In this document: one piece after another, positions 9,147 through 48,309 of the stretch
How positions within the stretch are numbered: position 1 is the first letter of the stretch
How the letters are laid out: each line of letters begins with the position of its first letter
NCBI GenBank assembly: GCA_023265395.1
Contig: JAHFTX010000012.1
Location: 1 to 64,000 of the forward strand
From: Thermoplasmata archaeon
GTDB taxonomy: Archaea; Thermoplasmatota; DTKX01; JAHFTX01
DNA length: 64,000 bases
Reading direction: 5' to 3'
Made by a program: the position numbers and the translations under genes
Notes under the pieces: generated by a model
Database searches by the model: none
What the model was told of the DNA's origin: nothing
Seen by the model: only the letters and a program-made list of their open reading frames with translations

Positions 9147-9447
9147 CGCCCTTGCAGCCGGTCCGTCGGGAGATAAGGTTTCTTGTGGCACCCGCGGGGC
9201 TTCCCACAACCACTCCCCGAGACCTTCCTGGCGTAGCTGGGTGCAGGGCAATTGGCCGACTCCACGCATTGGATGGCGTACTTTCTTCGCGGCTACCCAC
9301 GGAACGACTCATCGTCCCCTTCCCCTGTTCGACGGGAAGAACCCCCAGCCGTTGCTGCAGCCCTGATTCTTGCAGTTGATTCCTGGTCTTACCTCAGCTT
9401 ACGACTCGCAGGCATAGGGCAGCTCCTGATTCGTTCGCGTGCGATGG
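9147..9447. other. Intergenic region of about 300 nt
   Basis: No convincing gene. A cttatc-type element at about 9172-9181 may be the promoter of the PKD lipoprotein. The rest is a stretch of lower GC that continues into the orphan gene to the right. The short ORFs here lack coding character. Confidence 0.5.
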
Positions 9448-31373: not shown

Positions 31374-31582
31374 GGCTGCTCCCAGGCAGCCTCCCCCGCG
31401 GCGGCTCCCCGATGTCCCGTCACGACGTCCGCGGCCTGTCCCTGTGGCGAGGCCAAGGTCAGGAACTGCTGGCACCAGGCTTGGACCATCGGAAGGCAGA
31501 TAGGGCTGCAACCCTGGGGCAGCCGCAGGCGAGGACCTTGGTGGGTGTATCGAACGCTGCGGTGGGCTCCTCACGGCTGCGG

Positions 31583-32566
31583 ATGGACCACGCATTGCGT
31601 GGACGAAAGGCTCCCTCCTTCGCCGACGATGTCCGCACGTCCCTGTGGGACGTCCCCAAATGGCTACCCTCGAAGTACTTCTATGACGAACGTGGCTCGG
31701 AGCTGTTCGAACGGATCTGCACGCTGCCGGAGTACTACCTGACGAGCACCGAGGCGCAGATCCTGCGCGGGGCCGCTTCAGAGATCGTCGCGGAGGCCTC
31801 CATGGGAGAGGACCTGGTGCTGGTCGAACTCGGCAGCGGATCGTCGCGCAAGACCCAGACCCTCATCGCCGCGCTGCTGGCCGCCCAGGGACGATTGCTC
31901 TACGTCCCCATCGACATCTCCCCGACGATCCTGCACCAGGCGGCAGAGCGGCTGCTCGCCGCCTACCCGACCCTGCGGATCGTGGGCAAGGCCATGGAAC
32001 ACGAACAGGGACTGGCTGCGCTCTCGTTGGAGCAGCAAGGACCCAAGCTCGTGCTGTTCCTGGGCTCCTCCCTCGGGAACTACGAGCCTGCAGACTCAGA
32101 ACGCTTCCTGCGTGAGATCCGGCGCCACCTCGGACCGCAGGACCACCTGCTGCTTGGGGCCGACCTCTGCCACGACCCCGCGGTCCTCGAAGCGGCCTAT
32201 GACGACCCCACGGGGGTCACCGCCCTCTTCAACAAGAACCTGCTGGAGAGGATCAACCGCGAGCTGGGTGGGCGGTTCTCGACCGAGAGCTTCGACCATC
32301 TGGCGTTCTTCTCCCCCGAGAAGGTGCGGGTCGAGATGCACCTGCGCAGTCGCATCGACCAGCAGGTGCCCATCGAGGCGATCGGAGAGGTGGTCCGGTT
32401 CTCCGCAGGGGAGACGATCCACACGGAGAACTGCTACAAGTACACCCGCGAGCAGCTCACCACGCTCGCCGAGGTCTGTGGGTTCGCCCAGGTCACCTCG
32501 TGGAGCGACCCCCCTGATCGGTTCAGCGTCCAGCTGCTGCGGCCGCGTGGTGCCTCTCTCCGCTAG
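31583..32566 (+). CDS. egtD: EgtD-like histidine N-alpha-methyltransferase
   Basis: A SAM-dependent methyltransferase closely resembling EgtD, which trimethylates histidine to hercynine in ergothioneine synthesis. Family features are LPSKYFYDERGSELFE, LPEYYLTSTEAQIL, VELGSGSSRKT (SAM site), LFLGSSLGN and a C-terminal IHTENCYKYT followed by W...D..RFS. The ATG at 31583 gives 327 residues, matching known EgtD; the ORF-track start at 31412 adds a basic segment without homology. No EgtB or other ergothioneine gene is adjacent. It is 209 nt after leuS and convergent with the MFS gene, with a 6-nt gap. Confidence 0.88.
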   Translation: MDHALRGRKAPSFADDVRTSLWDVPKWLPSKYFYDERGSELFERICTLPEYYLTSTEAQILRGAASEIVAEASMGEDLVLVELGSGSSRKTQTLIAALLAAQGRLLYVPIDISPTILHQAAERLLAAYPTLRIVGKAMEHEQGLAALSLEQQGPKLVLFLGSSLGNYEPADSERFLREIRRHLGPQDHLLLGADLCHDPAVLEAAYDDPTGVTALFNKNLLERINRELGGRFSTESFDHLAFFSPEKVRVEMHLRSRIDQQVPIEAIGEVVRFSAGETIHTENCYKYTREQLTTLAEVCGFAQVTSWSDPPDRFSVQLLRPRGASLR

Positions 32567-32572
32567 GCTCGG

Positions 32573-33997
32573 TCAGGGGGTGACCGCGCCTGAAGGGGGA
32601 GGCGCGCTCCCCTCAGGGGCGAGTACCGGGTGCACATGGCGCAAGAGAAGTGCGGCGCCGACCAACAGGATTCCCGCGCCCAGAGGTGCCGAGAAGGCCC
32701 CGGCGGTGGATACCAGCAGCCCTCCGAGCAAGGCGCCGCCCAGGTCCCCCGTCGCCTCGACCGCTCGGTACAGACCGAGGACCTCCCCGCGAAGGTGCGG
32801 GGGTGCCAGGTGGGCCGTCGCTAGGGTCCCGCTGATGGAGATGAAGGACCAGACGATGCCGTCGATCGCCTGGAACACCACCAATCCAAGCGCGAGGTAG
32901 AGCTGCGGCACCCCCTGGAACAGAAGGAGCACCGCAAGCCCCCCGAGCATCACGCCGCGCACCGCCGATGCACGCACGAATCGGCTGATGGGATTGCCCG
33001 AGGAGGAGATCCTGCCGACCAGCTGGAAACCAATCATGCTGCACATGACCTTGGTCCCGAGCATCAGGTAGACGTATCCGATGGGCAAGTGCCAGAAGAC
33101 CACCACCAGCAGCGGCAACATGGTGAACAGCGCGTTGGAGCCCGAGAAGACCAGCATCGCACCAGCCATGTAGGTGGCAACAGCGCTGCGCCCGACGTTG
33201 TGCTCTGAGAGTGCAGTCTTGATGTGGCTCCATCGCGGCGGGGCGAGCTGCTTGAGTGGCAGCCACATCCCGCGCTCGATCGGGTGGGCATGCACGTAGG
33301 TGAGCAGGATGGTCACCGGCGAGCGCCGAGCCAGATGCAGGTCGTGCTTGGTGGCATGGGGATGGGGCAGGGTCAGCCGCCCCACGAGGGCAGCGGCAAA
33401 GGACGCGACCACCACCACCGCCAGGAGCCCCAGCAGCGGGTCACCGACCCGCTCCGTCAGTTGCGGTTCGATCGGGGTCAGCAGGATGATCCCCAACGAG
33501 ACCCCGACGAGCCATCCAAGGCACCCGATCATGTTGAGATGGGCAAGGACCGACGTGCGCTCCTCGGCCCTGTACATCCGTACCAGGTAGGCGGTCAGCA
33601 CCGGCGAGAGGGTGGAGGCACCGATGCCGAAGATGGTCCCCAGCAACGGCAACAGGGTGAGGATTGGGTTGAGCACCATCCCCAAGGAAGAGACCCCCAT
33701 CAGCAGCCCGCCGACTGGTTGGAGGTCCCCCGGCGGCCAGCCGCGGTCGATGAGGTGGCCGATGAGGAGCGCACCGCCGATGGAGCCCGCGGAGAGCCCT
33801 GCAGCGATGCCCGCGACCTCGATGGCGCCGCCGTGCAGCCGGGTGATGGCAAAGAGCGGCAGCGTCAGGTTCGCCAGCGCCACGGCTAGGCTGTTGGGCA
33901 GCGCGGGCCACAACCATCGCGGGGCGGTGGACCGCCTCTCGTCTGCATGGGTCGTACCAAGCTCGACGCGCGGCGCGAGCGGGGGGGGTGCCGCCAT
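32573..33997 (-). CDS. MFS transporter
   Basis: A major facilitator superfamily permease of about 474 residues with twelve predicted helices and a central basic loop (THDLHLARRSPV region). The motif-A-like loop after TM2 reads GHLIDRGWPPG. The substrate cannot be inferred. ATG 33997 (MAAPPPLAP) is preferred to the GTG at 34015. It is the last gene of the seven-gene minus-strand array, about 60 nt after the GGCT-like gene, so it probably exports or imports something linked to that array. Confidence 0.82.
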   Translation of the reverse strand: MAAPPPLAPRVELGTTHADERRSTAPRWLWPALPNSLAVALANLTLPLFAITRLHGGAIEVAGIAAGLSAGSIGGALLIGHLIDRGWPPGDLQPVGGLLMGVSSLGMVLNPILTLLPLLGTIFGIGASTLSPVLTAYLVRMYRAEERTSVLAHLNMIGCLGWLVGVSLGIILLTPIEPQLTERVGDPLLGLLAVVVVASFAAALVGRLTLPHPHATKHDLHLARRSPVTILLTYVHAHPIERGMWLPLKQLAPPRWSHIKTALSEHNVGRSAVATYMAGAMLVFSGSNALFTMLPLLVVVFWHLPIGYVYLMLGTKVMCSMIGFQLVGRISSSGNPISRFVRASAVRGVMLGGLAVLLLFQGVPQLYLALGLVVFQAIDGIVWSFISISGTLATAHLAPPHLRGEVLGLYRAVEATGDLGGALLGGLLVSTAGAFSAPLGAGILLVGAALLLRHVHPVLAPEGSAPPPSGAVTP

Positions 33998-34057
33998 CTG
34001 GTCGTGGTGGAACACGCCGTGGCCGGATAGGTGTGTCGCTCTGCCTCAGGTGGAGCA

Positions 34058-34915
34058 CTAGGGCGGTGCAAGACCACGGTCGGCAAGGCCGGAGCGTGCA
34101 AGTCGTCGATGCTGTTGACCGAGGGTGCGCTCCATCGCCGCAGCGTCACCGCCGAACCATGCCGTCGTGGCCGCCTCCAGCTCCTCCTGCACCTCTTCAG
34201 GCGTCAGGCGGTACTCGGGCGGTTGTCCGCGCAGCAGGTCCCGCACATCAACTCCATGGAGGCCCCCGAGCACACAGCCGAGGTGGTACTCCCATTGGTC
34301 ATTGTTTGCTCCCAGTTCGGCGATCGCTTCCGCCACGGAGAGGGCGGGGATCCTCATTGCTGGGGCGACCTGCCCCAGCTCAAGGGTAGGTGGGATGAAG
34401 CAGACCGCCACCGCCTTCCCAAGATGGACCGGCACCGGCACGTAGCAGGGGGACCAGTATCGCATCTGCTGATAGAGCTGGAATTGATATCTGGGGAAGT
34501 CGGCGACCTTCATTGCCAGCTGCCACAGGAAGGCCTCGATCCGCAGGCCCGCACCAGCAGCCTCACGTTCCAGGCCCGCCAGGATCTGCGCACACCCCGT
34601 TCGGGCGGCGATCGCCTGCCATCCACCCTCTGCCAACTGCAGCACCAGGCCCTCGACCGCAGTAGAGTCGACCGGGTCCTGCGGTGAGCGAATCACCCCG
34701 CCCATCGGCCAGGTGCGTGGACGCAGCCCTGCAGCCACACGCGCCTTGGCCGGTCCCTCCGGTGCGACGCGGACGCAGTAGCCGCGCTCCGCAGCCCCGA
34801 TCGCCGCCATCTGGGGAGGTCCCTGGGTCGGCACGTCCGGCCCCTGGCGCAAGCCGGTGCGGCTGAGCAACGAGCCGTAGACGAAGAGCGTCCCGCCACC
34901 TGCGGGAGGTGACAT
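34058..34915 (-). CDS. GGCT/ChaC-fold protein
   Basis: About 285 residues. The N-terminus TLFVYGSLLSRTGL carries the YGSL signature of the gamma-glutamylcyclotransferase fold, which cleaves gamma-glutamyl amides with release of 5-oxoproline. The rest diverges, with a helical C-terminal half (EVQEELEAATTAWFGG). I cannot identify the catalytic Glu with confidence, so activity is uncertain. ATG at 34915 overlaps the upstream stop as ATGA; the ORF-track start at 35044 lies inside the upstream gene. It is the sixth gene of the array. Confidence 0.6.
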   Translation of the reverse strand: MSPPAGGGTLFVYGSLLSRTGLRQGPDVPTQGPPQMAAIGAAERGYCVRVAPEGPAKARVAAGLRPRTWPMGGVIRSPQDPVDSTAVEGLVLQLAEGGWQAIAARTGCAQILAGLEREAAGAGLRIEAFLWQLAMKVADFPRYQFQLYQQMRYWSPCYVPVPVHLGKAVAVCFIPPTLELGQVAPAMRIPALSVAEAIAELGANNDQWEYHLGCVLGGLHGVDVRDLLRGQPPEYRLTPEEVQEELEAATTAWFGGDAAAMERTLGQQHRRLARSGLADRGLAPP

Positions 34916-36516
34916 CACCCCATCCCACCGTGGAAGTGGCCAGGGTGCGAATGGTAGCCGAAGCCCCGGCGGGAGCCGTACCACCGCCGCCGGTAGCCTC
35001 CCCAGTAGACGTGGTCGGAGTGCCCGGCGCGGTACCAGAACCACGAAGGCTGATAGTTGGCGACCGCCGCCTGCTGCACCTGGTAGTGGACCTTGAGGTA
35101 GTGTTGCGGCAGGAGGACCGAGCTATAGAAGGCCTGGCTCAGGACAGGGAACTGTGCACCGTCGATCCTGCGGGGGTCGAGCCCTCGGGCGATGGCGAAG
35201 ACCGCAGGGTTCTGGAGCACCAGCAGGGCCAGAGAGGCGTCCTCGCGCGGTGAGGCCCCGACCTGCCGTCGCGCCATGGCCCGGATCGCGCGGTCGAAGT
35301 GCGCCAGCACCTCGGCGGGGCCCAGGGGCGAGAGGGCGGCGAAGGCCGCGGCAATCTCGGGATGATCGACCCGTTGGCGCAATTGCGGGAAGAGGGTGCC
35401 GAACCGGTCGATGGCCCGCTGGAGCTCGCCCGTGCCCATGGTGAGCATCGCCGCCACGGAGGTGCGGGTCGCCGGCTGGTCGATCCCGATGGCTGAGAGC
35501 GGTTGGTTGAGCCCCCCCAGGTGCTCGAGCGTCTGCTCGAGGGGCCGCGGCTGGACCAGGAGCGCCGCAGCCAGCGGGGGGTCCCCGGGGAGCAGCTGCA
35601 TCAGCCGCGAGGCCAGCTGGCCCGCCGCAGGGGTAACCTGCTCGATGGGCAACGCTGCGAGCACCGCTGCCGCGGCCGTGCGCTTGGCAGCGTCCATCGG
35701 CACGCTCCAGAGCGCACGGATCGCTTCGTAGAAGGGACGATGGTCGGGACTGCTGCTGCTGGCGGTAAGGATCATCGCCGCGGCCAGCCCGCCCATCCCC
35801 GGATCCCCCTGGGAGGTCTGCTGGAAGTTGTCCAGGAAGCGCGGCACGGTGAGCTCAGGCGGCTCGGGCAGACCCGCCAGCACGAAGGCCACCGGGCGCA
35901 GGTCGGTCGGCGAGACCGTCGCGCCCAATCGCGCCATCAGCTGCTGGTGGATCTGGCTCCCCAGGGTGATGCGATGTTCGAGCCATGCATCGACCGCGGC
36001 GTTCCACTCGAGGACCTGCTCGAGGTTCGCGGTGCCCAGCACCTCAGGCGGGAGCGCCTCGAGGTCGCGCAGCACCTCCCAGCCCTGTCGGTTGATGGCG
36101 TAGGCGCTCTGGGTCGCTGCGCTATAGGCCAGCCGGGCGAGGGAGGCTTGGATCCGCATGATCTCGAGGGTCCGTGAACGGATCGCCGCCAGCTCCTGGC
36201 GCGTCGAGGTGCGCTCGGCAGCGGCATCGCGCTCGGGGCCCTCCTCTCCCTTGGCCCCCAGCAACTTGCCCAGCAGCGAGGCGTTGGAGCGGTCCAGCTC
36301 CATCTCGAGCCGGTGGACCTTGCCCATCAGCTCTTGCTGTCGCGCCACCAAGGTGGGAAGCTCGGCGACCTCCTTCTTGCGTTGCCCCAGCTCCCATTCC
36401 GAGAGGATGTCCACCAGTCCGCGCTTGACGAGGTCTTGTCCCTCGATGGCATCGAGGCTCACCTGGTCGTTGTCCCGGACGGTCCGCAACAGCGCCAGAG
36501 CGCGGTCAGAACGCAT
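34915..36516 (-). CDS. Coiled-coil protein with aromatic/Gly/His tail
   Basis: About 533 residues and no recognised domain. Residues about 25-130 form charged heptad-like helices (coiled coil). The middle is alpha-helical and Leu/Ala-rich. The last ~45 residues are strikingly rich in Tyr, Trp, Gly, His and Arg (WFWYRAGHSDHVYWGG and on to HFHGGMG). No signal peptide or TM helix. ATG 36516 overlaps the upstream stop by ATGA, which refutes the longer ORF-track start. The fifth gene of the array; possibly a cytosolic scaffold. Confidence 0.65.
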   Translation of the reverse strand: MRSDRALALLRTVRDNDQVSLDAIEGQDLVKRGLVDILSEWELGQRKKEVAELPTLVARQQELMGKVHRLEMELDRSNASLLGKLLGAKGEEGPERDAAAERTSTRQELAAIRSRTLEIMRIQASLARLAYSAATQSAYAINRQGWEVLRDLEALPPEVLGTANLEQVLEWNAAVDAWLEHRITLGSQIHQQLMARLGATVSPTDLRPVAFVLAGLPEPPELTVPRFLDNFQQTSQGDPGMGGLAAAMILTASSSSPDHRPFYEAIRALWSVPMDAAKRTAAAAVLAALPIEQVTPAAGQLASRLMQLLPGDPPLAAALLVQPRPLEQTLEHLGGLNQPLSAIGIDQPATRTSVAAMLTMGTGELQRAIDRFGTLFPQLRQRVDHPEIAAAFAALSPLGPAEVLAHFDRAIRAMARRQVGASPREDASLALLVLQNPAVFAIARGLDPRRIDGAQFPVLSQAFYSSVLLPQHYLKVHYQVQQAAVANYQPSWFWYRAGHSDHVYWGGYRRRWYGSRRGFGYHSHPGHFHGGMG

Positions 36517-37892
36517 CAGTGGCCCCCTCCTTGGATCAGGTCGGGCCCCAGCATCCCGGCAGCGGCTCCCGCGATGGCCGGCCCGGTCGCTCCTTGCAGC
36601 GCCGCCGCCACGCTGGGTGGATGCACTGGTAGATCGAGCAGGGGCACGCGCACCGTCTCTCCGAGCAGTCCCGGCGGATGCAGCAGCAACCAGAGCCGCT
36701 GGCCCTCCCACTCGGTACGGGCGATGGGGTCATCCTGCAGTGCCATGGGCAACAGGCCAGCCAGCGTCTGGCGCCATTGCGCCCAGCGCACGGGTTGCCC
36801 TTCCAGCTCCATCGCGGCGCCCCACAGACGTGTGACGGCATAGAATAGTTCGTAGCACGTACGCCCGAACTGCTCGCGCTGCACCTTGTGCACCCATCCG
36901 GGGGTCGGCAAGCGCACCGGCTCGAGCCCTTCGAGGTCGGCAAAGTAGAGCGTGCCGTCGGGCGCGATCACCGCATCCTTGTCCAGCCACACGTCGCGGT
37001 AGTCCATCCCTACCCACCCAGGGCCCTCGAACAGGCCATGTTCCTCGCCAAGGTCTCCCCTGCCCGCTGGCCGCAAGGTGCGGCACAGCACAGTGGTCGC
37101 TGCCACCCCCGAGGCGAGCATGCGCAGGATGCGCTCCTCCAGTGGGAGGGAGCTGAGCTGGGCGGTGGCGGCGATGACCTCCATCGGGTCGTTGCCGGCG
37201 CTGACCGAGCCGCCGAAGTAGACACGTACGTTTGAGGGAACCAAGCGGAGCTCCTGGACTGCTGGCCCATCGAATCGCCGCAGCCACCAGTGCTGCGCTG
37301 CGAAATCTGCCGCCTCTTCTGGGAGCGCCACGACCGCGACCGACGGGCAGATCCGGAACCCACACACATCGGAGGGGTCGTCGGGGGATGCGAGGGCCGA
37401 GAGTGCCAGCGAGCCGTCGGTGTTGGGCAGCCCCTGCGCGCCATAGGCGCTCGAGCCAAACCACTCCTCGGAGGTCACCCACGGGCTTTCTAGCTCGGGC
37501 AGGGGCTCCCCAGCCCGAGCGGGCACACCGCGCATCCGCGCAGCGGTCTGCTCGGTCATCGGCCCGTCGCCATAGAGGTCGGACCGGGTACCGACCCCCT
37601 TGACGCTGAGGACGAACCCTTGTCCAGAGAGGTCGACCCGTTGCTGCGGCAGGATCGCACACCTGTTGTCGTCGGCGATCGCACGAACCTCCCCCCTGGC
37701 TGGGGCGCCGCAAGCTGCAGCAAAGCGCGGCGGGAGGAACCACCGAATCCCGCCGATGGATTCAAGGCTCTGCGCTAGGAGCGGGTTGCTGCGCAACGCC
37801 TGGGCCTCTGCGAAGACCAGGGGACGGTCCTCCTCGCGAACGAGCAGCGGCGGAAGGATGCCGATGTGATGGGGTTGCGGAGGAGTGTACAT
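36516..37892 (-). CDS. Unrecognised 458-residue protein
   Basis: A soluble protein with no domain I can name. Conserved-looking features are a Trp/Phe-rich segment (WVTSEEWFGSSAYG), an ICPSVAVVALPEEAA strand-helix, and Y-R-D-V-W-L-D-K-D followed by APDGTLYFADLEG. The last faintly recalls the catalytic and DFG loops of kinase-like folds, but there is no clear ATP-binding lysine. ATG 37892 lies 5 nt after the stop of the TM-GNAT gene and the gene overlaps the next one by ATGA, so it is tightly coupled to both. Confidence 0.6.
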   Translation of the reverse strand: MYTPPQPHHIGILPPLLVREEDRPLVFAEAQALRSNPLLAQSLESIGGIRWFLPPRFAAACGAPARGEVRAIADDNRCAILPQQRVDLSGQGFVLSVKGVGTRSDLYGDGPMTEQTAARMRGVPARAGEPLPELESPWVTSEEWFGSSAYGAQGLPNTDGSLALSALASPDDPSDVCGFRICPSVAVVALPEEAADFAAQHWWLRRFDGPAVQELRLVPSNVRVYFGGSVSAGNDPMEVIAATAQLSSLPLEERILRMLASGVAATTVLCRTLRPAGRGDLGEEHGLFEGPGWVGMDYRDVWLDKDAVIAPDGTLYFADLEGLEPVRLPTPGWVHKVQREQFGRTCYELFYAVTRLWGAAMELEGQPVRWAQWRQTLAGLLPMALQDDPIARTEWEGQRLWLLLHPPGLLGETVRVPLLDLPVHPPSVAAALQGATGPAIAGAAAGMLGPDLIQGGGH

Positions 37893-37896
37893 CAGC

Positions 37897-39564
37897 TCAC
37901 CTGCGGAACACCGGCGAACCACCGCGCGACTGACCGCGGCTGGTCAGGAACGATTGGCCGGCGACGGTGAATCCCAGCTGCTGGTAGATGCGCGCCGAGG
38001 GGGTGTTCCAGGTGGCCACCTCGGTGAGCGCCTGCGGTATCCCCAGCGCGGCGAGCGCCTCGATGCGCGCCTTGACGAGGTCGGCGCCGACGCCGCGGTT
38101 GCGCCAGGTCGGGTGGACCGTCAGCCCATAGAGCCGTCCCAGCTGCGGGGAGATGTTGCAGAAGCCAAACCCGACGATGGCGCCCTGGTATTCGGCGACG
38201 AAGGCGAGGTCGTCGCTGGTGAGCGTGCGGTCCACCCACCGCTGCACGGCCACGCCGTAGACGCTCTTGGCCAGCGTGACGATCGCCGGGCCGTCCTTGG
38301 GTGTCGCCGGGCGCACGAGCTGCCCGTCGAATCCCAGACGCGCACGGGTCCCCCCGACATAGAGATCGTAAGTCTCGACGCGCGTGCCCTCGAGGCCGAT
38401 CTCGCTGAAGAAGTCTCGCGACCGGCTGTAGCGGAGCAGTTCGTCGGCCAGCCGTGGGTCATCGGCATAGAGCGAGACGGTGCGCGACTCGCGGTCGCCG
38501 ATCACGACCCCGCGCAGCGCCTCCCCATCGAGCGCGATCCAGACCCGCTCCTTGGCCTCGGCAGCCCGCTCGACCATCTCGGCGACGAAGGGGCTGTAGT
38601 AGGAGCGGAAGGAGAGGCGCAGGTGGTGGATCCCCTGGCCCGTGCCTAACCGGCGCAGTTTGGGCCGGACCGTCGTGCCATCGAAGGTGACGAGCCGCAC
38701 CCGTCGGGGGCCGTAGCGGCGGTGGACGACCAGCCCGATGACCACAAAGAGGACGCCCAGCCCTAGTCCGTAGGTGGCCCCGACCATCCACCAGCTGACC
38801 TGGAACCCGAAGCTCTGTGGCGTGATCTCGGTGACGGTGTGGAGGTGGAAGCCACCGATGAAGTCGATTCCTTCGTCATCCTCGGAGTAGTCCGCCGTGA
38901 TCAAGTACCCTGTGTGGGGATCGAAGTAGAGCGTGTTGCTGTAGGTCGCATAGGCAGTCCCGTAACTATCGTTGCGCTCGAATCCGCCACGATCCACCAG
39001 CCGTGTCGACTCCAGTGGCGTGGCGCCCCGCCACACGACTGCATGGGGCTCAGCGACGCTCAGTTGTTGGTCGCTGCTGGGGACAGAGCCGCCCAGGGCG
39101 GGGATGTGCTCGATGTGGAACCAGACGGCGAGGGTGCTGCTGTTGGCGCCTGCGTACGCCTCCCCGAGGTCGTTGTCACCGACGTAGGTACGCTCGACTC
39201 GGTCGAAGGTGAACACACCACGGATCCGTCCGGAATCCGTCGCGCCGTCGCTACCCGAGAAGGTCCATTTGACGTTGGCGCGGAACCGCACCTGGTGGGT
39301 ATCGACCGTCAGGATCTCATAGGTACCCGAGCTCTCACTGCGGTCGCTATAGTCGTAGTAATCCCCCCATCCGCCATCGACGGTGACCACCTCGTGCACT
39401 GAGAACCTCTGCCCCGCATGGGGTGCCTGACCACCGGAGGCCGCAGCGCCGCCAAGCATGCTCAAGCCTGCGCCCAGAAGCAACAACCCGATGAGCGCAG
39501 TGGCAGCGCCGCGACGTCCCGTTCCCGCTCGTGCCCGCCTGCCCGTTCGCACGGGCTCGACCAC
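37897..39564 (-). CDS. Transmembrane GNAT acetyltransferase with extracytoplasmic domain
   Basis: About 555 residues. A basic-then-hydrophobic signal segment (RRARAGTGRRGAATALIGLLLL) leads to an extracytoplasmic beta-rich domain (about 50-245) of no known family. A transmembrane helix at about 252-282 (WMVGATYGLGLGVLFVVIGLVV) ends in RRYGPRR. The cytoplasmic half ends in a GNAT domain (about 415-550) with the acetyl-CoA loop RNRGVGADLV near 488 and an LYGLTVHP strand before it. Between them is an unclassified segment that may be a degenerate second GNAT. The start is GTG at 39564. The layout suggests outside-to-inside signalling through acetylation. Confidence 0.75.
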   Translation of the reverse strand: MVEPVRTGRRARAGTGRRGAATALIGLLLLGAGLSMLGGAAASGGQAPHAGQRFSVHEVVTVDGGWGDYYDYSDRSESSGTYEILTVDTHQVRFRANVKWTFSGSDGATDSGRIRGVFTFDRVERTYVGDNDLGEAYAGANSSTLAVWFHIEHIPALGGSVPSSDQQLSVAEPHAVVWRGATPLESTRLVDRGGFERNDSYGTAYATYSNTLYFDPHTGYLITADYSEDDEGIDFIGGFHLHTVTEITPQSFGFQVSWWMVGATYGLGLGVLFVVIGLVVHRRYGPRRVRLVTFDGTTVRPKLRRLGTGQGIHHLRLSFRSYYSPFVAEMVERAAEAKERVWIALDGEALRGVVIGDRESRTVSLYADDPRLADELLRYSRSRDFFSEIGLEGTRVETYDLYVGGTRARLGFDGQLVRPATPKDGPAIVTLAKSVYGVAVQRWVDRTLTSDDLAFVAEYQGAIVGFGFCNISPQLGRLYGLTVHPTWRNRGVGADLVKARIEALAALGIPQALTEVATWNTPSARIYQQLGFTVAGQSFLTSRGQSRGGSPVFRR

Positions 39565-39600
39565 AGCGGGCAGGCAGATAACGCTTGGCGTCGACGGCCC

Positions 39601-42594
39601 CTACTCCGTCGGCGGTGGCGGCAGTGAGCGTCGATGCGCGCGCACCCACCGGACGGCCACGAGGAGAGTCGCGACCAGCAGGAAGGTCGCCCCCAACCCC
39701 CCGCCCACAGGTCCATCGAGGCGCTCGGCGAGGCTGGGCTCGACCACGTCCACCTCCACCGAGGTGCGGTTGGTGTTCCCCGCGTGGTCCACCACTTCCA
39801 AGCTCACCGTGTGGCGGCCGGAGCGCTCAAAGGCATGGCTGATGGTGCCCGCGGTGCTGACGCGCGACTGGCCTTCGTCGAAGAAGAAGCGGTAGGTGAC
39901 AATCCCCTGGTCGTCCTCGCTGTCACTGCCGTCGAGCAGCACGAGGCTGCCGGCACTCACGCGCTGCGGGACCAGCAGCACCGGTTGTGGTGGGACGAAG
40001 TCGCTGCGCACCTGCAGGTGCTGTGGCTCCTGCTGGTTGCCCGCGGCGTCGGTGGCCCAGTAGGTCCACCGGTGGTCCCCCCCGGGCAGCGCCATCGGCC
40101 CCTCGTACCGCACGGGCGCCGCAGAATCCTCTTGGATGAGGACCGTCACAGGGGAGCCATGGTCCTCCACCTCGGTTGCGAGCGTCAGGGTGACGCGGGA
40201 GGAGAGCCACTGGGGCGCGCCGTCAGAGTCGGGGCTCGGCAACGGTTGCACCGTCGCTCCCGACCACGGGACGGAAGTGTCCACAGCCATCGCCAGGACG
40301 ACCGGCGGGGAGCGGTTCCCCGCAGGGTCGGTGGCGATGCAGCGGACCTCGTGCGCACCCTCGGGGATTACCAATGGTGCCTTGACGAGCGAGGCGCCGG
40401 GCGAGACCACCTCCACATCCAGGTCGCACTGGACGGTCGCCTCAGGGTCGGTCAAGGGCTGGACGTGCGCGCGTGATCGGTACCACCCCTGGCTGCCGTC
40501 GGGCAGAGGCGGGTCGGCGACCAGCGCCAGGCTCGGGGGCTGCGAGTCTATTCGCAGTACCAGCTGCTGGGACGACCCGATGTTGCCCGCCACGTCGACG
40601 GCAGCGTAGTGGAGCGTGTGGGTCCCCTCGCGGCCGATCAACGGCCCAGCGTACGGGAAGGAGGCCTCGTCGTCCCACCAGAAGTCGATTGCGTCGTCGC
40701 TGCTGAGGGTGACCGAGGGCGGGTGGGTGTACCATCCCTGGGAACCGTCCGGCGTCACCGGGGTGACGAGCGCACTGGCGTTGGGTGGTGTGCGGTCGAC
40801 CTTCAGATGCAACGCACGAGGCTCGCCGATGTTCCCCGCCAGATCGACGGCCCAGTACCAGAGGTCATGCACCCCCTCTGGTGCGAACAGCGGCTGGGTA
40901 TAGTTGGTCGCCGCATCGGCATCGAGGCGAAAGCGCACCTGAGCGTCCTGCTCGCTGCGCAGCGTCACCTGCGGTGTTGAGCGGTACCATCCTTCGTCGC
41001 CGTCGGGTTGTGGCGGATCGATCTCTGCCGACGCCGTCGGCGCCGTCATGTCGAGCACCACATGGCGTGCCTGGGAATCCTCACGATTGTCCAGCAGGTC
41101 GGTGGCGAACCACTGCAGCAAGTTGTCTCCTTCGACGAAGGTGGGCTGGGGTGAGACGGCGCCGCCCGAAGGGCTCGTCTGGGGCGCCCCGGTGTCGACC
41201 CAGTAGGTCATCGTCGATGGCTCGTCGGTATGGAAAGAGACGATCGGTGGCTTGTTGAACGCCGTAGCGTCCTCGGGAGGCGCCGAAGGGCTGAGCAGGA
41301 GGGTCGAGACCGGTGGCGGTAGCCCGAGCCTCACGTCGAGGGAGAAGTGCGTCGCGCTGCCGCTGCTAGCGATCCCATCGAGGCGGACCCCGCTGTCGCT
41401 CCCATCGGTGCGCCGGCTGTCGGGGTTGGAGGTGTTGGTCAGCGTGTCGAACCCATCGCTCCCATCCCAGAGGGAATCCAGCGCGAAGATAGCGCCTCCA
41501 GGTGGCGAATCCAGCAGCTGGGGCCAGGTCCCCTCGACGAGGTCGACGCGTCGACGCGAGTCATCGCTGTTGGAGATCCGACCGAGGTCGACATGCCAGA
41601 CGAGCAAGCCTTCGCCGGGCAAGCTCGCGTCGAAGCCGGTTCGTTGGCGGACCTCCAGGAGGAAGAACTCCTCGGAGTCGATGGGGATGACCGCCACCTG
41701 CCGGGAGGTCTCGACCGCATCCAGCTCCAGGTGAGTCGGCGAGGTGGTCACGATTTGCACCCTTACCCATCCTAGCTGCCACTTGCTGGGGCCGCTCAAC
41801 TGCGGGGGAAGGTCCAGCGTGTCGCCCCACCCCAGCAGGTCCCATCCCCCGACGCCGAGGCTGGTCCCATCAGGGTCTCGCAGCAGAACGAGCCCGAGGT
41901 CCTCGCACAACAGGCGGCTGACCCGCGCGGTCGGCGCGACCACCGAGGAGAGCAGGTAGCTGGGGATCGTCACCCCGTCGCGGACGACGCCCGAGAGGGT
42001 GGCGTGATGGCTCCACACTTGTGGGTCGCCGATGGAGGAGGTGCCGCCGTCTCCGTCATCCTCGTCGGGGATTCCCGGATGCAGCAGCACCAGCACGTCG
42101 AGCAGCCCGTCCCCATCCTCGTCGTAGAGTGAGAAGTCCACAGCGGCATCGACCGCATCGATCGCCTCGAGGGCCAGTTGCTGGCCGTTGGCCAGTCCCG
42201 GTGGAGGGTCGCTGCTGGTGTCGAAGAGGCCGTAATGGCCCTCGCTGCCGGTAAGATTGACCCAATCGGCAGGTGCGTCCCCCTGCAGCGTGAGGTTGTC
42301 CCCGCTGCTTTGGGAGAAGTACTCGGCCATCGAGGCGGAACCGGTGGTCGGGTCGAGGTAGCGGTCGGCGATCTCCGTCGGCGTCGTCGACGGCGCTGGC
42401 ACGTCGGTGAATGCGACCAGCAGGATGAGCACCCGTGCGTCGGCTTGCACCGGCGTCGGCGGCGTCGACGGGTCGTCGTTGAGCGACCGTGACGAAGGAT
42501 CCAGGTGCGTCGGCGGCGCCCCCACCACCGTTGGAGTCGGAAGGCTTAGCAGCACCACGGCGGCGACGATGGCCACTGCGCCGATGGAGCCCAT
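39601..42594 (-). CDS. M6-peptidase-like surface protein, active site lost
   Basis: About 997 residues from the ATG at 42594. After a signal peptide, residues to about 420 follow the M6 (immune inhibitor A-like) plan: YFSQSSGDNLTLQG, the DEDGDGLLDVLVLLHPG strand, a WSHHATL segment, and GVGGWDLLGWGD with KWQLGWV. Where active M6 enzymes have HEFGH before DLGL, this protein has RLLCE (about 227-231), so the zinc site is gone. Five Ig-like repeats with GWY...P.VTL, a PKD-like domain and one C-terminal transmembrane helix follow. It may bind peptides or surfaces rather than cleave. Confidence 0.82.
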   Translation of the reverse strand: MGSIGAVAIVAAVVLLSLPTPTVVGAPPTHLDPSSRSLNDDPSTPPTPVQADARVLILLVAFTDVPAPSTTPTEIADRYLDPTTGSASMAEYFSQSSGDNLTLQGDAPADWVNLTGSEGHYGLFDTSSDPPPGLANGQQLALEAIDAVDAAVDFSLYDEDGDGLLDVLVLLHPGIPDEDDGDGGTSSIGDPQVWSHHATLSGVVRDGVTIPSYLLSSVVAPTARVSRLLCEDLGLVLLRDPDGTSLGVGGWDLLGWGDTLDLPPQLSGPSKWQLGWVRVQIVTTSPTHLELDAVETSRQVAVIPIDSEEFFLLEVRQRTGFDASLPGEGLLVWHVDLGRISNSDDSRRRVDLVEGTWPQLLDSPPGGAIFALDSLWDGSDGFDTLTNTSNPDSRRTDGSDSGVRLDGIASSGSATHFSLDVRLGLPPPVSTLLLSPSAPPEDATAFNKPPIVSFHTDEPSTMTYWVDTGAPQTSPSGGAVSPQPTFVEGDNLLQWFATDLLDNREDSQARHVVLDMTAPTASAEIDPPQPDGDEGWYRSTPQVTLRSEQDAQVRFRLDADAATNYTQPLFAPEGVHDLWYWAVDLAGNIGEPRALHLKVDRTPPNASALVTPVTPDGSQGWYTHPPSVTLSSDDAIDFWWDDEASFPYAGPLIGREGTHTLHYAAVDVAGNIGSSQQLVLRIDSQPPSLALVADPPLPDGSQGWYRSRAHVQPLTDPEATVQCDLDVEVVSPGASLVKAPLVIPEGAHEVRCIATDPAGNRSPPVVLAMAVDTSVPWSGATVQPLPSPDSDGAPQWLSSRVTLTLATEVEDHGSPVTVLIQEDSAAPVRYEGPMALPGGDHRWTYWATDAAGNQQEPQHLQVRSDFVPPQPVLLVPQRVSAGSLVLLDGSDSEDDQGIVTYRFFFDEGQSRVSTAGTISHAFERSGRHTVSLEVVDHAGNTNRTSVEVDVVEPSLAERLDGPVGGGLGATFLLVATLLVAVRWVRAHRRSLPPPPTE

Positions 42595-42658
42595 GTCCGA
42601 TGGGTGGTCGCCCGGGTACAAAGCGTTCACGGAAGCGGCTCGAAACGCCGACTTCGAC

Positions 42659-45217
42659 CTATTCCTCGGGATTGTCTGCGAATTCCGCTGGGGGGGGTGG
42701 GGTCACCTTCTCGGTCAGCGCTGGAGGTCGGTTCCGCCGGACGGAGGCCGGCAGCCGAGGACCGAGGCGTCGCCGACTGGAACCTCCGCCCGTCAGCAGC
42801 AGCAGGCTGGGGATCAGCACGACCGTCGCCAGCAGGCTGTAGGCGAGCATCAGCGTGGAGAGGATTCCGAAGGTCGCGAACATGTTCATCGGCGAGAAGG
42901 CAAGCACCATGAACCCCAGCCCGGTGGAGGCGGCGGCGCCCACGGAGGCGCTCCCGCTGTGCTGCAACGACAAGGTCACCGCTCCCTCATGACTTTCGCC
43001 GCGCCCGAGCTCCTCGCGATAGCGCTGGATGATGTGGATCGCGTAGTCGACCCCGACCCCGATGGTCATGGAGGTCACGGTCACGGTCACGACGTTGAGG
43101 CTCAGCCCCAGCAGGCGCATCGTCGCGAGGATCCAGATGGCCACCAGGATTACCGGGAGCACCCCGATCAGGCCCAGGCGGAGCGAACGGAACACCACGA
43201 TCAGCATCAGGGTCACGACGATGATCGAGATGATCACCGAGGAGACCATGCTGTCGCTGATGTCGGTCAGGAGCTCATGGAAGATCACCGGGCTGCCCGT
43301 GGCAGTGACCTCCACGCTGTCCAGGTGCTGCAAGGACCGCACATCGTCGGTGACCTCGTCGAGCACCTCCTTCTGCTCGATGGTCCCCTTGACGTCGACG
43401 TTGCTAAAGCGCAAGACGGTGGCGTCGTACCTCCCGTGGTCATCACGGTGGAGCACGCTGGCGGCGACCGTTGCGCTGCGAGGGTCGTCCAGGAGGGCAT
43501 GGAACACGATGGTGACGTGATCATCGTCATCGGGGAGCCCATCCCCGTTGCCATCGGAGAGGTCGAGGGCGGAGACCGCCTCTGGGTCGGCCATCAGCTC
43601 GCGGACGAGCGAGGCAGCGGTGAGGAGCTGGATCTGGCCTCCGATGCGGGCGATGTGCTCATCGTCAGCGGCCCGCCGGCTGACGTCATCGATCGCCTGG
43701 AGCACACGCAGCGTGTCAATCGGTCCGCGGACCAGCACCAGGGCGTTGTTGAACCCGACGCTCCCATAGTGGTTGTCGAGCGCCTCGAAGGCGACGATCA
43801 CATCCGCGTCGTCCGCCACCAGGTCGGCGTTGCGCAGGGAGCTCTGAAGGGTCGAGCCCATCCACACGGCCGGGAGGGTCAGTGCGACGACCATCAGCAC
43901 CACCAGGGGGCCGCGCTTCGCCACGCCGATGGTCGAGCGCACCAGCCATCCCGGAGGCCGCCGGTTCTCAAGGCTCTTCCCCGTCGCGTGGGAGGCGGTC
44001 TCCCGTCCGGAGGCGATGAGCAGACGCAGGGCAGGCAGCAGGAGGGAGTTCGCCACCAGCGCATAGGCCATCCCCAGGGCCAATGCCAGCCCAAAGTCGC
44101 GGATGGCGCTGATCGAGCTGACCAGGTTGCTGGCGAAAGCGGCCGAGGTGGTGATGGTCGTCAGGAACAGCGCCAGGCCCACGGCGGAGATGGAGCGGCC
44201 CATCGCGGTCGTGGGGCCGTTGCCGTTGGACCCTTCTTCACGGTATCGATGGAGCAGGTGCAACCCGTCGTCGACCCCCAGTGCCAGCAGCAGGATCGGC
44301 GCGAAGAAGGTCAGCTGCGAGAAGGTCAGGTGCAGGTAGGTGATGGATCCTGCCAGCCATACGAAGACCATCGGGATCATCGCGAACACCAAGATTGCGT
44401 CGAGGAGGCGGCGCAACGTGAGCGCGAGGACGACGATGAGGAGGACCAAGGCGATAGGCAGCAGGATCCGCAGACTCTCGATGCTGCTGTCGTTCATCTC
44501 CTGGATGAACGCGCCAGCGACCTTGGGCTCGATCCCGCCTTCGCGGAAGTGCTGCGCCACCGTGCGTACGGCCACCTGGTCCTCCTCTGCCCCATCGGTC
44601 AGTCGGGTTTGGAGCACGAGCAACGCGGAGCTGCGGTCATCAGCCATCAGCGCGCTCACCCGAGGGTCCTGCAGGACCGCATCGAGCGTGGCATCGAGGG
44701 TGACGTCATCGACCGACGCAAGGGTGAGATTGCGTGATGCCAGGGCGGGGGTGATGGCACTGAGCACAGATTGGAACGCCTCGTCGCGGGGAACGTCGAC
44801 GTAGCTGCGGACACGCTCGTCCGCCCACAGCGCATCCTCGAAGAGCGCAAGCCCGCGGATCTCCTTGGCATCGATGCGTCCATCGTTTGCGAGGGCGACG
44901 ATCGCGACCGATTGGCCCGTGGGTGGGAAGAGCTCCTGGATGTCGTCGTCGGCGTTGATCACCGGGCTGTTGGGGAAGTAGTCGGCGATGTCGACCTTGA
45001 TCTCCAACCGCAGGACCCCAGGGACCATCAGGATGGTCACGAGGACGAAGGCGATGACCACCAACCGCGGCCGCGTGGTGACCAATGTAGAGACTGAGGC
45101 AGCGACCGGGCGCCGTTGCGGTTCCGCGCGGGGGGAGGCCATCGGCTCGCGGGCAACCGACGCGCCGCCCATTAGCCCTTCGATGGGCTTGCGGCCGCGG
45201 CGGTGCGCCCGCATCAT
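42659..45217 (-). CDS. MMPL/RND-family (HAE3-like) transporter
   Basis: About 852 residues with two homologous halves. Each has a first TM helix, a large extracytoplasmic loop and a five-helix sterol-sensing-like bundle. The matching loops LALGVDDGLHLLHRYRE and GVGVDYAIHIIQRYREE carry the Asp expected for proton-coupled transport. The substrate is likely lipid-like or hydrophobic, from family knowledge. It starts at ATG 45217 behind a TATA box and is the first gene of the seven-gene minus-strand array; the M6-like gene starts 64 nt after its stop. Confidence 0.85.
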   Translation of the reverse strand: MMRAHRRGRKPIEGLMGGASVAREPMASPRAEPQRRPVAASVSTLVTTRPRLVVIAFVLVTILMVPGVLRLEIKVDIADYFPNSPVINADDDIQELFPPTGQSVAIVALANDGRIDAKEIRGLALFEDALWADERVRSYVDVPRDEAFQSVLSAITPALASRNLTLASVDDVTLDATLDAVLQDPRVSALMADDRSSALLVLQTRLTDGAEEDQVAVRTVAQHFREGGIEPKVAGAFIQEMNDSSIESLRILLPIALVLLIVVLALTLRRLLDAILVFAMIPMVFVWLAGSITYLHLTFSQLTFFAPILLLALGVDDGLHLLHRYREEGSNGNGPTTAMGRSISAVGLALFLTTITTSAAFASNLVSSISAIRDFGLALALGMAYALVANSLLLPALRLLIASGRETASHATGKSLENRRPPGWLVRSTIGVAKRGPLVVLMVVALTLPAVWMGSTLQSSLRNADLVADDADVIVAFEALDNHYGSVGFNNALVLVRGPIDTLRVLQAIDDVSRRAADDEHIARIGGQIQLLTAASLVRELMADPEAVSALDLSDGNGDGLPDDDDHVTIVFHALLDDPRSATVAASVLHRDDHGRYDATVLRFSNVDVKGTIEQKEVLDEVTDDVRSLQHLDSVEVTATGSPVIFHELLTDISDSMVSSVIISIIVVTLMLIVVFRSLRLGLIGVLPVILVAIWILATMRLLGLSLNVVTVTVTSMTIGVGVDYAIHIIQRYREELGRGESHEGAVTLSLQHSGSASVGAAASTGLGFMVLAFSPMNMFATFGILSTLMLAYSLLATVVLIPSLLLLTGGGSSRRRLGPRLPASVRRNRPPALTEKVTPPPPAEFADNPEE

Positions 45218-45247
45218 CGCCGCACGCCAAGGCCTTCCCCCGCGAAT

Positions 45248-45255
45248 CTTAAATA
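45248..45255 (-). promoter_or_regulatory. TATA box for the MMPL-led array
   Basis: cttaaata (minus strand tatttaag) is centred about 33-35 nt before the MMPL ATG. I saw no equally good box within the array, which supports one long transcript. It also lies about 85 nt before artA and could serve it. Confidence 0.5.
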
Positions 45256-45326
45256 GGGTTCGGAGCCCACCTGCGACCCCGATGAGGGCCCTTGCTCCCG
45301 CGCAATCGCGGCCTGGTTGCCAGCCC

Positions 45327-45331
45327 AGGAG
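45327..45331 (+). promoter_or_regulatory. Shine-Dalgarno site of artA
   Basis: aggag lies 6 nt before the ATG at 45338 and decides for that start over the ORF-track start at 45317. Confidence 0.55.
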
Positions 45332-45337
45332 TGTGCG

Positions 45338-46594
45338 ATGGCCGACTGGGTGACCCTGCTGCTGCCCTTGGCGGCGGTCATCGGCGTCTGCTATTACTTC
45401 CTCAATCGCAACGACCGTGCGTTTGCGGTCGCCACCCTCTGGTGCGGTGGGTGGGTCCTGCTGGTGATGGCGGGGAACGCGCCCGAGTACATCCTCGGCG
45501 AGTACAACGCCGGCCCATCGGATCGGGCAGCCATCCTCTCAGTGACCATGCTCGATGCCACCGACTCCATCTACAGTCCCCTCGTGGCGGCGGTGGATGC
45601 CAGCCTGTTCGCTGGCCTGCTTCTGCTGGGCCTTGCCGCCCTCTCATACCGGGACCGGGGACATCTGCTTGCGGCAGTGGGTTGGCAGCTCTTCGGTATC
45701 TATTGGCTGTTCCAGATCCCCAAGAACCTCCTGATCAACGACACCGTCAACATCCTCTTCATCACCGGCGGTTTCTCCCTCTTTGCGGTCCTGAGCTACC
45801 ACGAGGTCCTGTCTCGTGCATGGGATGAGCAACTGGCATCGATGCGCTTCATCGCGGGCGCCTCGGCGATCGCGGGGGGGTTGTACTTCGCCTTGGCCAA
45901 GCTCCACGTGCTGGGCACACCGCTGATCTTCACGGTCGCCAACCAGACCACGGTGCTCGCGCGCGCGTTCTTTGGCTACCACGTCGGCCTCGCGGCCCCA
46001 CCATATTCGATCACCGCCGAGGATGGGGTGATCATCCCCGTCACGGGGATGATCGGCGGCACCGACATCGCGCTCGTGCTCGCCTGCACGGGGATCGAGG
46101 CGATCGCCCTCTTCCTTGGGGCGATCCTCGCTGCACCCTACGTGCAGAACCCCTGGGAGGGATGGCGCAGGGCCCCTTCGCGACTGAGCATGACCTGGCG
46201 CCGACTCTCCCCACTCGGGCGGTGCCTGCTGGCCTTGTCGTTGACGGGCCCTGTCATCTACGTCCTCAACGTCCTACGCAACGTCGCCATCATCTTCCTG
46301 CTCGAAGAACACCAATTCGCTGGAGTTGCCCAGTCCCTCGGCTACACAGAGTTCGATTTCGTCCATGGGATCCTGTTCAAACTCTTCGCCCTGGGGGTCC
46401 TGATCGGTCTCTCCCTGGTGGTGTTCGAGATCGTACCCGAGCTTCACACCGCCGTGCTGGGCCTCTTTAGACTGGTCAACCGGCGCCCGATGCACGCCTC
46501 CACCCCTTCATCGACAGAGGGCAGCTTGCGGACGACGAGACGCTCCGTCATTCCATCCCCTGCGGTCGTCGGCCCCGATGACGAGGCTGAGTAG
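45338..46594 (+). CDS. artA: Archaeosortase
   Basis: A multi-spanning membrane transpeptidase-like enzyme that processes C-terminal sorting signals of surface proteins. The archaeo-/exosortase catalytic elements are in order: Cys in ACTGIEAIALFLGAI (near residue 250 from this start), Arg in YVLNVLRNVAIIF (near 314) and a basic residue in DFVHGILFK (His near 343). The CTGI...AI loop and the LNxxRN helix resemble archaeosortase A, the PGF-CTERM enzyme. The 418-residue length includes extra N-terminal helices. A clear SD site precedes it. No PGF-CTERM substrate is visible in the window. It is followed by asd and pssA. Confidence 0.88.
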   Translation: MADWVTLLLPLAAVIGVCYYFLNRNDRAFAVATLWCGGWVLLVMAGNAPEYILGEYNAGPSDRAAILSVTMLDATDSIYSPLVAAVDASLFAGLLLLGLAALSYRDRGHLLAAVGWQLFGIYWLFQIPKNLLINDTVNILFITGGFSLFAVLSYHEVLSRAWDEQLASMRFIAGASAIAGGLYFALAKLHVLGTPLIFTVANQTTVLARAFFGYHVGLAAPPYSITAEDGVIIPVTGMIGGTDIALVLACTGIEAIALFLGAILAAPYVQNPWEGWRRAPSRLSMTWRRLSPLGRCLLALSLTGPVIYVLNVLRNVAIIFLLEEHQFAGVAQSLGYTEFDFVHGILFKLFALGVLIGLSLVVFEIVPELHTAVLGLFRLVNRRPMHASTPSSTEGSLRTTRRSVIPSPAVVGPDDEAE

Positions 46595-46646
46595 ACTCGC
46601 CGGCTCCCGCCGTAGGTTGAAGTAGGGCCAGCCCCTGGCTTGGACC

Positions 46647-47285
46647 GTGCTGGCCCCGCGCAGTGGCCCCTGGATCGCGGCACCGCTGGCGGGTGCGGCG
46701 GCGTGGATTGCCCTTTGGCTGCTGCTCCCCCTCCCCAGCGGCCCTGCACCGATTGCCCCCATGGTCGCCCTGGCGACGGTCTCCCTGGTGCTGCTGGTAT
46801 TCTTCCGCGACCCCAATCGGGCGGTGGGTTTGGGGGTCGTCTCGCCCGCCGACGGACGGGTCACGGCGCTGGCGCAGCGGGAGGGTCGCTGGGAAGTCTC
46901 CATATTCATGAACCTCCACGATGTCCACGTCAATCGCATGCCTCTTGCAGGAAAGGTCGAGGCAATCACCCACCATCCCGGGAGTCATCGGTTCGCCTTC
47001 TCCAAGGACAGCATCCACAATGAGCGGATGGTCTACGAGGTGTCGACCCCTGCAGGGCGGATGCTCGTGACGCAGATCGCCGGGGCGTTCGCCCGCCGCT
47101 GCGTCAGCTACGTCGAGCCGGGCTCGGTGGTCGAGCGTGGATCTCGCTTTGGGATGATCCGCCTCTCGTCGCGGGTCGACCTTTCCCTACCGGCCCTTCA
47201 GGGGCTCGAACCAGCCGTGGCGGTCGGAGACCGTGTCCTTGCCGGGACATCGACCCTCTTCGTGATGCCGTCCGCAGGGGGCTAG
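46647..47285 (+). CDS. asd: Archaetidylserine decarboxylase (PSD family)
   Basis: Decarboxylates archaetidylserine to archaetidylethanolamine. It has an N-terminal hydrophobic hairpin, then VFFRDPNR, SPADGRV, the FMNLHDVHVNRMPLAGKV core with the conserved His, and the C-terminal MIRLSSRVDLSLP. The usual self-cleavage/pyruvoyl site in this class, as I recall it, is a G-S pair in a RFGSRVD context; here the pair is S-S (174-175). The start is GTG at 46647. It lies 52 nt after artA and 4 nt before pssA, so it is probably in one operon. Confidence 0.9.
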   Translation: MLAPRSGPWIAAPLAGAAAWIALWLLLPLPSGPAPIAPMVALATVSLVLLVFFRDPNRAVGLGVVSPADGRVTALAQREGRWEVSIFMNLHDVHVNRMPLAGKVEAITHHPGSHRFAFSKDSIHNERMVYEVSTPAGRMLVTQIAGAFARRCVSYVEPGSVVERGSRFGMIRLSSRVDLSLPALQGLEPAVAVGDRVLAGTSTLFVMPSAGG

Positions 47286-47289
47286 GGTC

Positions 47290-48309
47290 GTGCGGCTCCT
47301 GCGGGCGATCTCCATCGCCGATGTCTTCACCCTGGTCAATGCCTCGTTCGGTTTCCTCGCCATCGTCGCGATCATGGCCAGCCGCAGCGTGGCCTTCGAC
47401 GGTGGCCAGAGGACCTGGGGACTGTTGCTCAACACGAGGGCGCTCATCTGGGGACCGGGCACCCCCTCCCCGGCAGGGCTGGCGGTCGCGCTGATCTTGC
47501 TGGGCATCCTCGCGGATGGATTCGATGGGATCGTCGCACGGCGCTTCGCCCAGCAGTGGGTCCTGGGCGACTACCTCGACCTGATGGCGGACACCATCAG
47601 TTTCGCGATCGCCCCCGGACTGCTCTTCCTGCGGATGCTCCTCTCTCTGGCAGAGGCTTCCAGCACCCTCCGACCGGAGGGTGCCTTCTCGCACCAGCTG
47701 TTGATGCTCATCGTCATCCCAGCCCTGATCGTATTGCCCATGGTCATCGGCACCGTGCTGCGCCTGGCCCGCTTCGCACATTCCAAGGGTGGTCGACAAG
47801 TTGCCTTCCGCGGGCTGCCCTCTCCAGCGTCAGGTCTGGTCGCCGTCCTGGTGATCCTGATGGTCCTGGAGGCACCACCGCAGTTGCAGCAGGACTGGCG
47901 GTTCTTCACGTTGGTGGCGCTCCTCCCCATGGCGTTGTGCGTCCTGATGATCAGTGAGATTCCCTACCCCAAGGTGCGCGGTATCGAGGCGGTCGTCGCG
48001 GCGGTGCTCCTGCTTGCCCTGGTGGGGGTGCTGCTCTCCGCCAGCGGTGGGTTGTTGCTCACCTGGAGCATCGCTGCCATCGCTGGGGCGCATCTCGCGT
48101 ACCTGGTCGGCGGACCGCTCTTGGCAAGTTTCCGACTCCCCGATCCTGAAGACCTCCGGGCCTGGGAGGCGCCGCCGCGAAGCGGTGGCGAACAAGCACC
48201 CCCGGCGCAGCAGGCTCCTGCCGCAGGGAGAGGGTATGTGATCCCGCCACCGCCCTCCGCAGGCCTCAAGATGGGCCGCCCGCATCCCCCAACTCTCGAG
48301 GAGGAGTGA
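47290..48309 (+). CDS. pssA: Archaetidylserine synthase (CDP-alcohol phosphatidyltransferase)
   Basis: Exchanges CMP of CDP-archaeol for serine. The CDP-alcohol phosphatidyltransferase motif D-x2-D-G-x2-A-R-x8-G-x3-D-x3-D is complete as DGFDGIVARRFAQQWVLGDY plus LDLMAD, near residue 76. About eight transmembrane helices follow the usual layout. The C-terminal ~60 residues form a Pro-rich cytoplasmic tail. GTG start at 47290. Substrate assignment to serine rests mainly on the adjacent decarboxylase gene. Its stop overlaps mptD by 4 nt. Confidence 0.88.
   Translation: MRLLRAISIADVFTLVNASFGFLAIVAIMASRSVAFDGGQRTWGLLLNTRALIWGPGTPSPAGLAVALILLGILADGFDGIVARRFAQQWVLGDYLDLMADTISFAIAPGLLFLRMLLSLAEASSTLRPEGAFSHQLLMLIVIPALIVLPMVIGTVLRLARFAHSKGGRQVAFRGLPSPASGLVAVLVILMVLEAPPQLQQDWRFFTLVALLPMALCVLMISEIPYPKVRGIEAVVAAVLLLALVGVLLSASGGLLLTWSIAAIAGAHLAYLVGGPLLASFRLPDPEDLRAWEAPPRSGGEQAPPAQQAPAAGRGYVIPPPPSAGLKMGRPHPPTLEEE

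Follow-up and report, generated by a model that had tools for sequence, protein, structure and literature searches.

In the 64,000-nucleotide stretch of a Thermoplasmata archaeon genome analysed here (hereafter the window), seven long co-oriented genes occupy positions 32573-45217 of the minus strand, as the sequence-only reading of this DNA had stated, and three consecutive genes within this array form a well-supported conserved module. These are the genes of TM-GNAT (37897-39564), a transmembrane protein with a GNAT acetyltransferase part; of P458 (36516-37892), a 458-residue predicted nucleotidyltransferase with a SelO-like pseudokinase fold, likewise predicted; and of CC (34915-36516), a coiled-coil protein of 533 residues. 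The other four genes encode an MMPL-type transporter, an M6-like surface protein, a GGCT-like protein and an MFS transporter, and are probably lineage-specific neighbours of the conserved three-gene core, sharing an operon with it. As the best explanation of the locus we tentatively propose a three-gene signalling module with a SelO-like P458, accompanied by these four neighbours in a probable operon. The source contig of the window (contig 23) comprises 68,206 bases, and the genome, of 2.78 Mb and 66% G+C (GC), is the sole representative of its order in our sample, where its class includes five genomes.

Homologues were sought in 389 genomes of the phylum and in 106 genomes of the order holding most of the P458 carriers (approximately 70% GC, genomes of about 2 Mb). 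In the phylum sample, P458 had homologues in 13 further genomes (34-39% identity, E from 1e-46 to 1e-53), a fourteenth match, in genome G291, being a marginal fragment; in the order sample, homologues were found in 49 of the 106 genomes. We read 33 neighbourhoods, mapping four protein types by hidden Markov models (HMMs) with gene calls weighted by GC at third codon positions (GC3). In all 33, a CC homologue directly followed P458 on the same strand, and a gene for a membrane-anchored ectodomain came next after CC in 29 of the 31 loci with room for it. At the remaining two, L030 and L087, a fused ectodomain-GNAT gene lies just upstream of P458, as in the window; in the split form, the GNAT gene is separate and convergent at 26 of 27 testable loci. 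In the P458 tree, the three fused loci fall outside the clade of the split loci (support 100/99), the branches of the fused ones being long. In the single-contig genome G092, the GC content of the module locus is 36%.

The three proteins differed in their value as probes. TM-GNAT yielded only domain-level GNAT matches within the five-genome class and one weak match in a contig scan, which at first suggested no conservation, and it was P458 that proved the informative probe. A single-sequence search with CC gave one marginal fragment outside the genome, because its homologues are only 18-24% identical, and they were exposed by synteny. The sequence-only reading had singled out the transmembrane GNAT, the coiled-coil and the 458-residue proteins for a neighbourhood search, and conserved order was found for exactly these three. 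It was right that the locus holds an undescribed gene set, conserved in the case of these three; the other four genes are absent from the 33 other neighbourhoods read, one weak MMPL-type match apart. We found no paper describing such a module in the literature, which was covered in part. As the ectodomain and the GNAT are fused in some lineages and are strict neighbours in others, the ectodomain, GNAT, P458 and CC appear to work together, and there is good evidence that they are functionally coupled.

TM-GNAT has, by hydropathy, an N-terminal signal or transmembrane segment (residues 19-43), an ectodomain, a second transmembrane segment (258-282) and then a two-part GNAT, which would lie in the cytoplasm. 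The acetyltransferase assignment is above the Pfam cut-off (Acetyltransf_1, E 9e-15, 55.4 bits against 20.7), and the coenzyme A motif is kept as RNRGVGA. The fused homologue L030:4049-5749 is 27.8% identical over 576 residues, and split homologues are present in 29 loci. Compared with the GNAT family in general (PF00583), both the fused and the split forms score above the Pfam cut-off and keep the RxxGxG/A motif; they differ in an extra N-terminal half and, at three loci, in fusion behind a membrane-anchored ectodomain. In place of the GNAT of the fused form, the ectodomain protein of the split form has at its C-terminus a conserved zinc ribbon, CxYCGxxxDSTxxxCPxCGAPR (L031:2046-3098 and equivalents). 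At L030 (genome G355), two further GNAT genes, with best matches to Acetyltransf_3, flank the fused-type module (3400-3954 and 8596-9234).

When Pfam, NCBIfam, PADLOC and PDB sequences were searched with P458 and CC, there were either no matches or none of significance. An AlphaFold2 model of P458, built from 14 homologues (predicted local distance difference test, pLDDT, 73.9; predicted TM-score, pTM, 0.80), was compared with known structures by VIA-align. SelO/YdiU structures filled the top seven rows (Z 14.4-15.6, root-mean-square deviation, rmsd, 3.5-3.9 over about 265 residues), the best being Pseudomonas syringae SelO (6eac, Z 15.6, rmsd 3.7 over 263 residues), followed by NIS siderophore synthetases with Z up to 12.7 and then by protein kinases with Z up to 9.8. 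Ten residues are invariant in 42 P458 homologues: K98, G99, G101, R216, S220, R223, D304, K305, D306 and D319. In Escherichia coli SelO the matching order is K107, G108, G110, R170, S174, R177, N247 and D256, with identical RxxxSxxR spacing; P458 thus has the lysine (K98), the two gamma-phosphate arginines (R216, R223) and the DFG-type aspartate (D319) in the SelO order. ATP sits flipped in P. syringae SelO, its gamma phosphate held by Arg176 and Arg183; the metal ligands are Asn253 and Asp262, of which Asp262 also acts as the base (PMC8097203). The two arginines and the last aspartate of P458 correspond in order to Arg176, Arg183 and Asp262, and, counted from the metal-binding residue, both proteins have valine at the position of the usual catalytic aspartate (Val301 in P458). 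The likeness to SelO/YdiU (PF02696) therefore comprises a predicted kinase-like fold, the ordered motifs DxR, KGxG, RxxxSxxR, Vxxxx[ND] and D-x(1-2)-G, and the missing catalytic aspartate.

Several observations weigh against a SelO-type signalling module. Foldseek alone, run with the P458 model, gave no match with E under 0.001; the SelO HMM reached at best E 10 with P458, which is not significant; Pfam SelO matched none of 14 P458 members at E<=1; and hhalign of P458 with SelO gave P 0.018-0.041 (probability 1-3%). The metal-binding asparagine of SelO (Asn253) is replaced by Asp306 in all P458 homologues, and residues 143-152, beside the candidate alpha-C glutamate, are modelled at pLDDT under 50. 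On the positive side, the composite pattern D[GN]R-x(15-25)-KGxG ... RxxxSxxR ... Vxxxx[ND] ... D-x(1-2)-G occurs in 7 of 8 SelO proteins, 38 of 42 P458 homologues, none of four NIS proteins, none of 5998 other open reading frames (ORFs) and none of 84000 shuffles, and, having been built after inspection of both families, it supports the relationship and is no proof of it. Further points against are that CC had no recognisable fold in the structure search and that one split locus (L025) lacks a GNAT. With no profile match despite the likeness in fold and motifs, P458 is best described as SelO-like and not as a member of the SelO family, to which it is 12-14% identical. The genomic settings differ too: P458 has TM-GNAT and CC as module partners, and the genes around E. 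coli selO are unrelated.

CC is predicted (AlphaFold2) to consist of a coiled coil, an alpha/alpha solenoid and a disordered C-terminal tail ending in HPGHFHGGMG. A known fold was sought for it and rejected, as the only matches were coiled-coil and designed alpha-toroid structures with Z 7-9, that is, generic architecture. In an alignment of 12 family members the tail is strongly conserved, with H524, P525 and H527 invariant. Such conservation within a disordered segment suggests a substrate peptide or a metal site.

If these proteins form a signalling module, the membrane-anchored ectodomain would sense a signal at the cell surface, and the gene fusion and gene order suggest that the cytoplasmic acetyltransferase and P458 would act together at the membrane. 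Judging by its fold and residues, P458 may bind ATP and pass AMP or another nucleotide to a protein hydroxyl, while the GNAT would acetylate, so that the module would nucleotidylate and acetylate a protein target at the membrane. CC could serve as the scaffold and as the likely substrate, with the HPxH tail as the modified or metal-binding segment; this is the weakest step of the scheme. SelO, of bacteria and mitochondria, is the main known case of a kinase-fold enzyme that AMPylates proteins, and to our knowledge no membrane receptor is known to drive such AMPylation. A bolder version would place protein acetylation and protein AMPylation, as a pair, under the direct control of an external sensor, with a new SelO-like pseudokinase family as the AMPylating enzymes and the conserved His-rich tail of CC as the target; it would amount to a Thermoplasmatota receptor pathway unlike two-component or Ser/Thr-kinase signalling, and we consider it doubtful. 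If true, the coupling of a SelO-like enzyme to an acetyltransferase and a membrane ectodomain would give archaeal surface signalling a new layout. The module also reveals protein families, about 400-530 residues long, with no description in the libraries searched.

Two alternatives concern the role of P458. Many pseudokinases are scaffolds, and it is possible, though less likely than the main reading, that P458 is a non-catalytic or a phosphorylating kinase-like protein, the module being a receptor-scaffold assembly with the GNAT as the sole transferase of interest. The replacement of the catalytic-loop aspartate by Val301 and of the metal asparagine by Asp306 would fit a non-catalytic protein, as would the frequency of scaffold roles among pseudokinases; however, K98, R216, R223, D304, D306 and D319 are fully (100%) conserved in the 42 homologues, which is typical of a working active site. 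P458 could also be an NIS-like ligase adenylating a carboxylate, with the GNAT acylating an amine and the product leaving through the MFS and MMPL transporters, an arrangement like that of hydroxamate siderophore clusters. NIS synthetases (IucA/IucC, AcsD, DesD, RhbC/RhbF) may share the kinase-like ATP-binding core with P458 (Z 9.6-12.7), constitute its second structural group (AcsD Z 12.7, IucA Z 12.5) and are usually partnered by GNAT and MFS genes, both of which are present in the window array. Nevertheless, SelO structures reach higher Z with a smaller rmsd, hhalign of P458 with four NIS proteins gave P 0.82, the motif set is found in none of these four, and Pfam IucA_IucC is not matched by P458, so that neither a common motif set nor profile similarity links the two. 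Moreover, the module shows no link to transporters at other loci and a membrane ectodomain is fused to its GNAT; we regard the ligase as unlikely.

The other alternatives concern the locus as a whole. That all seven genes form one transport-and-modification system, recently assembled in this lineage, is favoured by their tight arrangement in the window: the gaps, in the order from MMPL to MFS, are 28, 36, 4, -1, -1 and 42 nucleotides, two gene pairs (P458/CC and CC/GGCT-like) overlap, and a single TATA-like element stands at the head. The sequence-only reading had put the gaps at no more than about 65 nucleotides, which agrees with the largest measured, 42; it was right about the two overlaps and mistaken about their form, each being a one-base TGATG stop/start and not a four-base ATGA. 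Its single strong TATA box ahead of the first gene is also borne out, TTAAATA at 45249-45255 (CCTATTTAAG on the minus strand, approximately 35 nucleotides ahead of the MMPL ATG) being the only A/T-only run of at least six bases within 32573-45330. Yet relatives of MMPL, M6-like, GGCT-like and MFS were found near none of the 33 other modules, save for one MMPL-type match of 23% identity, and no M6-domain relative accompanies the MMPL relatives of the class (25-37% identity) where their flanks were read. The array is therefore a conserved core around which the other genes have been gathered locally, and a single seven-gene system is improbable. The same absence speaks against the transport coupled to modification of a small molecule or peptide that had been suggested from the sequence, and the predicted SelO-like kinase fold of P458 likewise points away from that theme, to protein nucleotidylation. 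Finally, conflict systems often employ kinase-like and GNAT effectors, and the distribution of the module is patchy (the 49 carriers among the 106 genomes of one order, many of which are incomplete), as might be expected of a defence or conflict system; but PADLOC gave no meaningful match, viral contigs contain no relative, and no defence genes recur in the 33 neighbourhoods, which makes this role very improbable. The three-gene signalling module with its lineage-specific neighbours is therefore the reading we retain.

The features of the array outside the core are as follows. The first gene (42659-45217) encodes an MMPL/HAE3-type RND transporter (PF03176, E 1.1e-51, 176.2 bits against a cut-off of 20.5; TIGR00921, 236.9 bits, under its cut-off). 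The Pfam cut-offs are exceeded by the MMPL, MFS and GNAT proteins. The second gene (39601-42630) encodes an M6-like surface protein of 1009 residues with OmpL47, Big_13 and PKD domains and a C-terminal transmembrane segment (Peptidase_M6, E 2e-6; PKD_4 and Big_13 matches; TIGR03296, 93.9 bits, under the cut-off). The HExxH zinc motif was not found in it, in keeping with the label of pseudopeptidase given earlier. Its repeat region is shared with a second large protein of the window (10290-13709, minus strand; 31% identity over 550 residues). As regards gene starts, the ATG of CC is preceded by AAGGAGG, and both CC and the GGCT-like protein begin at internal ATGs (giving 533 and 285 residues), the ORF lists over-extending both.

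The GGCT-like protein (34058-34915) has no Pfam or PDB sequence match, and its putative link to the gamma-glutamyl cyclotransferase (GGCT) family is the YGSLL motif only. A single relative was found in the 292 genomes searched, a paralogue of 36% identity in the same genome (L102:7476-8402, contig 33 of G000), which lies downstream of an amino-acid permease gene; both copies of the family thus adjoin a transporter gene. The last gene of the array (32573-34015) encodes the MFS transporter (PF07690, E 2.8e-24). It is convergent with, and 6 nucleotides away from, a plus-strand gene for the L-histidine methyltransferase EgtD (31412-32566; 348.6 bits, cut-off 290.9). A link of the GGCT-like/MFS pair to ergothioneine was considered in view of the adjacent EgtD but could not be established, as the only EgtB-like match of the genome is below the cut-off and on another contig.

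At the opposite end, the TATA-like run is situated between the MMPL gene and a divergent archaeosortase gene starting at 45317, and could serve either of them. The plus-strand genes at 45317-48309 comprise Archaeosortase A (TIGR04125, 120 bits, cut-off 75), then an archaetidylserine-decarboxylase-like gene and then a further membrane gene resembling phosphatidylserine/archaetidylserine synthase; they probably represent a cluster for lipid anchoring of surface proteins, divergent from the array.

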